A model generated the notes under the pieces. That model searched no databases, was not told the DNA's origin, and saw only the letters and a list, made by a program, of their open reading frames with translations. From Aneurinibacillus sp. (GTDB taxonomy: Bacteria > Bacillota > UBA5301 > DYFA01): DNA of 64,000 bases. Position numbers and translations under genes: made by a program. Positions 57,836 to 62,392 of this stretch are shown here, piece after piece. The DNA is taken from NCBI GenBank assembly GCA_020725425.1, contig DYFA01000051.1, positions 1-64,000 of the forward strand. Direction: 5' to 3'. Numbering within the stretch: position 1 is the stretch's first letter; every line of letters begins with the position of its first letter.

Positions 57836-59092
57836 ATGCCCCGCCTCATCGCTTTCCTGAAGCTTGCGGGGTTCTACGTCGCAGTCGCCCGGAGGCTGTA
57901 CGGCCTTTCCGGACCGCTTTTGGTAGGCCGGCGGAATGAGGTGTGGGAAGCTTCCCGCGGTCTTAGGGAAGCCGGGATAAAACCGGGCCTCTCCCGGCGG
58001 GAAGCGGCGTACGCTGCCCCGGAAGCCCGATGGGTGGAGTATTCCCCGGCGGACTTCTGCCGTCCGGCGGAGGCTTTTTGGCAGCGTTGCGCCCAGCTTA
58101 CGCCGCGGGTCGAGCCTCTGGCGGAACACGAAGCCTTCCTCGACCTGACCGACCTTCCCGGCCTTCAAGCCCCTCCGTCTGCCCAAGCCTTGCCTTGCGT
58201 CCTGCAGGAACTGGCCGGTGACCTCCGGCGCAACCTTGGAGCGGAGGAAGAGCTGGAACTGCGGGCCGGCCTTGCGGTGAACCGCCTGGTCGCCCGCCTG
58301 GCCGCGGAGCAAGTGGACGGAGAGGGGTGCTTGGTAGTCGCTCCCGGGGAGGAGGGCGTCTTCCTGGCCCCCCTCTCTCCAACCTCCCTCTGGACCATCT
58401 CGGCTTCCGCCCGAAAGGCCCTCGGCCAGTTGGGCCTGTCTACCCTGGCGGAGGTGCGGGCCGTACCCGAACCAGCCTTGCACCGCCTCGTCGGCCCCGA
58501 AGCCTTTCTTCTCCTGCGCCACGCTTGGGGACGGGATGATTCGCCCGTCCCGCTCCTGACGGAGGCGCGGTCGGCCCGAGCGAAGGCCTTTCCGCACCAG
58601 CTCGAACACCAGATCGACTTCCCGCCGTCGGTTGAGTGGCCCGAGGCGGTGGCTCTCTTGCGGAAAGCAGCCCTGGACTTTGCCGCTCAAGTGCAGGAGG
58701 GCGGCCGGGGCTGCCGGCGCCTGGGCCTCTCCCTTGAACTGGCGACGGGCGAGCGCCGTTCGACCCGGTGTACGCCGCAACAGCCTTTGCGCACCCCGGA
58801 GGAGTTCGTCGAGACCCTGACGGGAACCGCAGGACGGCTCTTGGCCAGGGCAGGGTCTTCCGCTGCGCCCCGCCGTTTGGTGCTTCAAGCCGAAGTGTCG
58901 GAAGAAGGGGCGGCCCAGTTGTCGCTTCTGTCCACCTTGCCCGCCTCACCTCCGGACACGCTCGACCGGGTCATGGCAGCGGTCAACCAGGCCTGCGCCA
59001 GGGAGGCGCTTTTCCCCGCCGCCCGGCTGGCCAGTCCACGGCGTGAGCGGTTCCGCCAGCTCCTTCTGGGCGGCAGCCATGCGGCTCCTTGA
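57836..59092 (+). CDS. imuB: ImuB-like Y-family DNA polymerase homolog, likely catalytically inactive
   Basis: VEPLAEHEAFLDLTDLPGL and helix-hairpin region ALGQLGLSTLAEVRAVPEPALHRLVG; motif-I acidic residues absent; QLSLL clamp-like motif. Confidence 0.8.
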   Translation: MPRLIAFLKLAGFYVAVARRLYGLSGPLLVGRRNEVWEASRGLREAGIKPGLSRREAAYAAPEARWVEYSPADFCRPAEAFWQRCAQLTPRVEPLAEHEAFLDLTDLPGLQAPPSAQALPCVLQELAGDLRRNLGAEEELELRAGLAVNRLVARLAAEQVDGEGCLVVAPGEEGVFLAPLSPTSLWTISASARKALGQLGLSTLAEVRAVPEPALHRLVGPEAFLLLRHAWGRDDSPVPLLTEARSARAKAFPHQLEHQIDFPPSVEWPEAVALLRKAALDFAAQVQEGGRGCRRLGLSLELATGERRSTRCTPQQPLRTPEEFVETLTGTAGRLLARAGSSAAPRRLVLQAEVSEEGAAQLSLLSTLPASPPDTLDRVMAAVNQACAREALFPAARLASPRRERFRQLLLGGSHAAP

Positions 59093-59336
59093 CGTGCCGC
59101 TGGTCGTCCGGGAGGGTCCGGACGGCCGTCTGGCCAGTTTCGTCTGGCGGGGGAGGAAATACCGGGTGGCGGAGCGGGTCGACCTCTGGCGGGAGGTGGG
59201 CGCCTGGTGGGAGGGCGAGCCGGAGAAGACGTTTCTCGTGGTGCGCACCGAACCGGCCGGGGTCTTCGAGCTTTACCACACCGGGCCGGCCCCGGACGGG
59301 CGGCCTGTCTGGCGTTTGTATAAAGTGTACGACTGA
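59079..59336 (+). CDS. Small DUF6504-like protein of mutagenesis cassettes
   Basis: FVWRGRKYRVAERVDLWREVGAWWEGEPEKTFLVVRTEPAGVFELYHTG...WRLYKVYD; overlaps imuB-like end, 11 nt before dnaE-like start. Confidence 0.6.
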   Translation: MRLLDVPLVVREGPDGRLASFVWRGRKYRVAERVDLWREVGAWWEGEPEKTFLVVRTEPAGVFELYHTGPAPDGRPVWRLYKVYD

Positions 59337-62300: not shown

Positions 62301-62392
62301 CCGAGCCGGCCCTGGCGGTGAAGGGTCGGGTGGACCAGCGTGGCAACGCCAGGAGCGTCATCGCCCATGAGATCAGCCCGCTATCGCTGTAA
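59348..62392 (+). CDS. DNA polymerase III alpha subunit, DnaE2/error-prone type
   Basis: PHP domain [104 protein letters not shown]. Confidence 0.9.
   Translation: [1014 protein letters not shown]

Follow-up and report, generated by a model that had tools for sequence, protein, structure and literature searches.

The three forward-strand genes at 57836-62392 of the window, that is, of the whole stretch of 64,000 nucleotides analysed here, encode a Y-family protein, a DUF6504 protein and a DnaE polymerase, and the operon composed of them can be regarded, with a probability of about 85% and judging from its sequence, as specifying an SOS-induced translesion complex of the DnaE2X-iPolY-ImuB-C-RecA type. 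This gene set and its location are those given by a first-pass annotation of the same DNA, which had also described the small gene as overlapping the Y-family gene, as it does by 14 nt, and had placed a PHP-containing DnaE behind it; a Pfam search of ORF3 found PHP, palm, fingers, HhH and OB domains. Relatives of the small protein align from the ATG at 59079 and not from the listed GTG at 59043, which is probably too early as a start, and with the ATG the length of 85 aa and the 14-nt overlap are obtained. ORF3 begins 2 nt past the ORF2 stop when its GTG is used, or 11 nt past it at the ATG 59348, which is possible as an alternative start. Because of this tight spacing, the three genes would be expected to form a single transcript with translational coupling.

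Features of the operon and its upstream region in the window
Feature	Position	Strand	Details
Promoter-like site TTGATA-17-TAAAAT	57771..57799	+	consensus scan, 10/12 matches
LexA (SOS) box CGAACAAATGTTTG	57778..57791	+	perfect match to CGAACRNRYGTTYG
Inactive Y-family polymerase (iPolY), ORF1	57836..59092	+	418 aa; Pfam IMS E=3e-13
Clamp-binding-like pentapeptide QLSLL	58916..58930	+	residues 361-365
RecA-NT-like motif PPDTLDRVMAAVNQACAREALFPAARL	58949..59029	+	profile comparisons of tails; follows QLSLL
Conserved C-terminal RRE..(M/R)L-type tail motif	59039..59068	+	alignments; in 87/99 iPolYs
Standalone ImuB-C (DUF6504), ORF2	59079..59336	+	85 aa; Pfam DUF6504 E=7.8e-12
DnaE2 (DnaE2X-type) error-prone polymerase, ORF3	59339..62392	+	1017 aa from GTG; Pfam domains, tree

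The Y-family protein (iPolY) matches the Pol IV profile with E=1.3e-66, and its predicted model (mean pLDDT 86) was related by Foldseek to Y-family structures with E about 1e-25. Its motif I is LIAFLKLAGFYVAVA, in which K9 occupies the position of DinB D8, and its SIDE motif is AEHE, in which D103 has become H98 and only the final E (E99) is left, so that the alignment to the genome's own DinB gives the triad K9/H98/E99 instead of D/D/E. No intact D/D/E triad was found in any of the 99 distinct Y-family proteins of the module. The loss of the motif-I acids and the EHE in place of (S)xDE, both pointed out in the first-pass annotation, are therefore borne out, and by these residues iPolY is catalytically dead. 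The QLSLL reported there was likewise found at its place; the pentapeptide is identical in the genome's own catalytic DinB, and a clamp-like motif is present in 80 of the 99 iPolY tails. The conserved motif at the very C-terminus of iPolY is possibly a docking site for ImuB-C.

By profile comparison and predicted fold, the small protein is the ImuB C-terminal domain (ImuB-C) encoded as a separate gene. When 105 small proteins were compared by hhalign with the C-termini of canonical ImuBs, they matched over the full length with a probability of 96.7% and E=4.5e-10, and 20 column-shuffled controls reached at most 1.4% probability. In addition, Pfam DUF6504 matches the last 72-75 residues of the annotated ImuBs of Shinella, Pelagibacterium and Gluconobacter (E=3e-4 to 1.5e-3, under the curated Pfam cut-off). 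Because of this homology, ORF1 and ORF2 together would constitute a split ImuB. The model of the small protein has a confident all-beta fold (pLDDT 91.6), and W37, W43, W44 and W78 are the invariant residues. No PDB match was found by sequence, nor was a counterpart of the fold found in the PDB (best E 0.17, TM under 0.4), in agreement with PMC12926913, in which ImuB-C is a β-barrel without close PDB relatives and is modelled on the DnaE2 PHP domain. A literature search for DUF6504 found nothing; the domain was named in PMC3765255, where solo copies beside DnaE2 were noted. The same genome has a second standalone DUF6504/ImuB-C gene (L079:5892-6302, contig C71, about 46391-46801), which follows a YceD-like gene, has fapR-plsX-like genes in its vicinity and is not adjoined by a polymerase.

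ImuA, the partner of canonical ImuB, had been reported as missing beside these genes, and by profile searches its absence extends to the whole genome; an imuA elsewhere, which according to the first-pass annotation would have spoken against its reading, was not detected. The RecA Pfam model finds a single RecA in this genome, distant from the operon, and one RecA in 49 of 50 module genomes; the exception, genome G147, in which a full RecA was not found, was left out of the count of ImuA absence. Since this model is insensitive to ImuA (0.13 or no match on annotated ImuAs), the search was made with a profile from an ImuA alignment, which recovered a Paracoccus ImuA, kept out of it as a control, at 1.6e-14. 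In the 49 module genomes (this one and 48 others), the ImuA profile matched nothing but the RecAs and some weak frames, most of which have the length of RadA, and the matches to NCBIfam ImuA were rejected as only RecA and RadA-like frames.

The stand-in for ImuA is likely to be RecA, which would be engaged through the RecA-NT-like motif at the C-terminus of iPolY. PMC11791113 describes the RecA-NT of mycobacterial ImuB as mediating the binding of ImuA'. A profile of 88 iPolY tails aligned with RecA N-termini in the expected register with a score of 23.0 (maximum of 15.3 in 100 column shuffles), and the window iPolY tail scored 30.9 bits on a profile of its relatives built without it (maximum of 7.7 in 300 shuffles). 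The motif in the window is degenerate and lacks the FG of RecA, so the affinity of this iPolY for RecA is uncertain, and in this species the interaction may be weak or have disappeared.

The first-pass annotation did not contain the LexA box CGAACAAATGTTTG. The LexA-box consensus of the Bacillota is CGAACRNRYGTTYG, and the perfect match in the window is placed between the -35 and -10 hexamers of the sole promoter-like site of the region (mean of 0.1 sites in shuffles), 44 nt ahead of the first start codon. There are four perfect LexA sites in the genome, including this one; when one mismatch is allowed, however, 44 strand-wise matches are found versus 14 for the reversed control, so that a single box is not proof by itself. 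The comparison across relatives appears to be stronger evidence: a LexA box with at most one mismatch lies upstream, near the Y-family start, in 74 of 99 distinct loci, against a background of 0.2% of equally long windows from the same 99 loci. The genome also encodes LexA of about 211 aa. A LexA-controlled operon is a trait of the ImuA-ImuB-DnaE2 mutasome, and at the sequence level the box and the promoter provide it here. The divergent DUF72 gene (56921-57679, minus strand) has the intergenic region in common with the box; as a partner of the module it was rejected, since no more than 6 of 116 relative loci have it close to the module. Downstream of the operon, two tRNA-Ser genes (62457-62544, tga, and 63622-63714, gct, both on the plus strand) flank a cation-efflux gene (62551-63501), and the ORF calls over these two tRNA genes were spurious.

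The window DnaE2 retains the polymerase aspartates D388, D390 and D539, in 118 of 119 DnaE2s the catalytic triad is unchanged, and the DnaE2 of the module is predicted to be polymerase-competent. It is not the sole replicative DnaE, an outcome which the first-pass annotation had named as contrary to its reading, because DnaE1 and PolC are encoded elsewhere in the genome; PolC is present in 23 of the 30 module genomes examined and absent from 7. A phylogeny was built from the DnaE2s of the module, the DnaE1s of module genomes and plasmid-borne DnaE2s, without published DnaE2X sequences. It places all DnaE2s apart from DnaE1 (support 1.0), and 52 module DnaE2s including that of the window form one group beside the ImuA-ImuB-DnaE2 type, with a modest support of 0.61. 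An inserted domain in the long DnaE2 ORFs of some relatives was rejected, because these ORFs have long spacers or early starts.

The PHP site was read at nine positions, HHDHEH[C/H]DH, as in PMC12926913. Among the 26 DnaE1s, 24 have the site intact and the two exceptions are truncated; in most plasmid DnaE2As it is ruined. The window DnaE2 has HHDHEHCNH, with N196 replacing D, as have 36 of the 52 module DnaE2s in the tree; in a larger set (n=115), HHDHEHCNH occurs in 91 and HHDHEHCDH in 15, with at least eight changes on the tree. In mycobacterial DnaE1, the exonuclease needs D228/D226, and DnaE2 is reported to have no equivalent of this residue (PMC12641269); the TND-x-HY motif context suggests that N196 is at this position. 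It is conceivable, though rather doubtful, that this D-to-N ligand is an evolutionary fidelity switch, which would be off in the 91 and intact, possibly with proofreading, in the 15. If this were true, the accuracy of an SOS polymerase complex would be tuned by one residue; in any case, the single-ligand change makes a testable statement on how a replicative-type polymerase turns error-prone.

Of the 399 genomes of the phylum that were sampled, 95 contain DUF6504, and in at least 49 the three genes are clustered. Furthermore, a scan of named genomes gave 326 DnaE2 relatives, and 67 of the best 80 genome-contig loci have the order Y-family protein, small protein, DnaE2; a gene order recurring in this way is beyond chance. 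The carriers are deep-branching Bacillota (Limnochordia, Syntrophomonas, Symbiobacterium, Thermincola and Fermentithermobacillaceae) and a few others, which include an Armatimonadetes MAG. In this survey, the arrangement is common in deep-branching Bacillota with PolC, where DnaE2 was thought rare, and it is accompanied there by LexA boxes. Several loci depart from the usual arrangement. L105, L107, L117 and L121 have the small protein and DnaE2 without an adjoining Y-family gene, and their DnaE2s, each carrying HHDHEHCNH, fall into a clade of their own; such a DnaE2-ImuB-C pair was previously reported only in Actinobacteria (PMC12926913). In most of L102, L103, L138, L144-L152, L154 and L166, a tryptophanyl-tRNA-synthetase-like gene on the opposite strand keeps dnaE2 apart from the small gene, which means that transcription of dnaE2 must start there from a separate promoter. 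In one genome, a tandem-repeat-rich stretch (L120:4961-5860) separates the small gene and dnaE2.

The gene order, the homologies, the dead and intact active sites, the LexA box, the lack of a detectable ImuA and the motifs are the sequence-based part of the proposed mechanism; the protein contacts, LexA binding, RecA recruitment and the translesion and mutagenic activity we infer. LexA bound between the -35 and -10 hexamers would keep the operon off until LexA cleavage is set off by RecA filaments formed on damaged DNA, and the three genes would then be co-expressed. The dead Y-family protein would serve as a scaffold, docked on the β clamp by QLSLL, and its helix resembling the RecA N-terminus would cap a RecA protomer, with RecA in ImuA's place. 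The PHP domain of DnaE2 would be the docking site of the ImuB-C β-barrel, as has been modelled for ImuB-C in fused ImuB, and DnaE2 would perform the synthesis.

The first-pass annotation had read the locus as a minimal mutasome, and this reading holds insofar as the operon appears to be SOS-controlled, ImuA-less and DnaE2-based with an inactive Y-family subunit. Its further proposal, that the small protein functionally substitutes for ImuA, is very unlikely. The small gene does belong to the operon, and ImuA is missing, but the protein is homologous end to end to the ImuB C-terminal domain, and its 85 aa are predicted to form an all-beta fold versus the RecA-type fold of ImuA; moreover, iPolY retains a RecA-NT-like motif, for which there would be no use if it had no partner with a RecA fold. 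Still less credible is a true ImuA-ImuB-DnaE2 cassette with its imuA elsewhere or in an assembly gap. The host assembly, in 72 contigs and 96.85% complete, leaves room for such a gap, but ImuA is undetected in the 48 further module genomes too, and the Y-family protein is without the fused ImuB-C, that domain being a separate gene.

What the complex would do is the subject of another explanation, in which SOS induction yields a rather accurate polymerase complex for repair or gap filling and not a mutator, and the PHP site binds metal and still allows some proofreading. In its favour, a single one of the nine PHP ligands is altered in 91 of 115 relatives and none in 15, while the site of the proteobacterial DnaE2A is ruined. 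However, the window's sole PHP change is at the very ligand which, by its motif context, corresponds to the aspartate required for the mycobacterial exonuclease (D226/D228, PMC12641269), and the partners are translesion-type proteins, so that this explanation is considered improbable. The SOS-induced translesion complex with RecA in the position of ImuA is therefore preferred.

No defence-system model matched the operon. Like iPolY, UmuC is a Y-family protein using a RecA-NT-like motif and a small β subunit, but UmuC itself is the polymerase, whereas here the C-family DnaE2 would do the synthesis. The ImuA-ImuB-DnaE2 mutasome of Mycobacterium tuberculosis and Proteobacteria has in common with the operon the SOS control, a dead Y-family scaffold with a clamp motif, the ImuB-C domain and DnaE2. 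In contrast, the operon has neither ImuA, the degenerate RecA homologue, nor an ImuB with a fused C-terminal domain; ImuB is split here into two genes, and the PHP ligands of DnaE2 are nearly all kept. With ImuB naturally split in this way, what the Y-family scaffold, ImuB-C and RecA each contribute can be tested gene by gene, an approach not open to a fused ImuB. A link between standalone ImuB-C and DnaE2 is likewise known from DnaE2B-PolY-ImuB-C-RecA of Tessaracoccus and DnaE2B-ImuB-C of Arthrobacter alpinus (PMC12926913), but in these associations PolY is either active or missing, and Actinobacteria are the only group for which they were reported.

The closest counterpart, the DnaE2X-iPolY-ImuB-C-RecA module, is a prediction of Timinskas and Venclovas (2019, 2026). 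In PMC6511836, operons were described (Kyrpidia tusciae) in which an inactive PolY is combined with a standalone ImuB-C and a DnaE2 but imuA is lacking, and RecA was proposed to fill the position of ImuA; the DnaE2X group received its name in PMC12926913, where models of DnaE2X-iPolY-ImuB-C-RecA were also presented. The module is often linked to LexA and occurs in genomes with PolC, as is the case here. The operon has an inactive Y-family protein, a RecA-NT-like motif (degenerate), a standalone ImuB-C, a DnaE2 lineage separate from DnaE1 and DnaE2A, no imuA and a RecA in the genome, and no difference in composition was found from the Kyrpidia tusciae type, compared by its published description. 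Since all the testable features of this module are present and two of those of ImuA-ImuB-DnaE2 are missing, the operon is, as far as its genes and motifs go, a member of the already predicted module, to which the frequency in the phylum, the LexA boxes, the triad survey and the single D-to-N change in the PHP site are added here.
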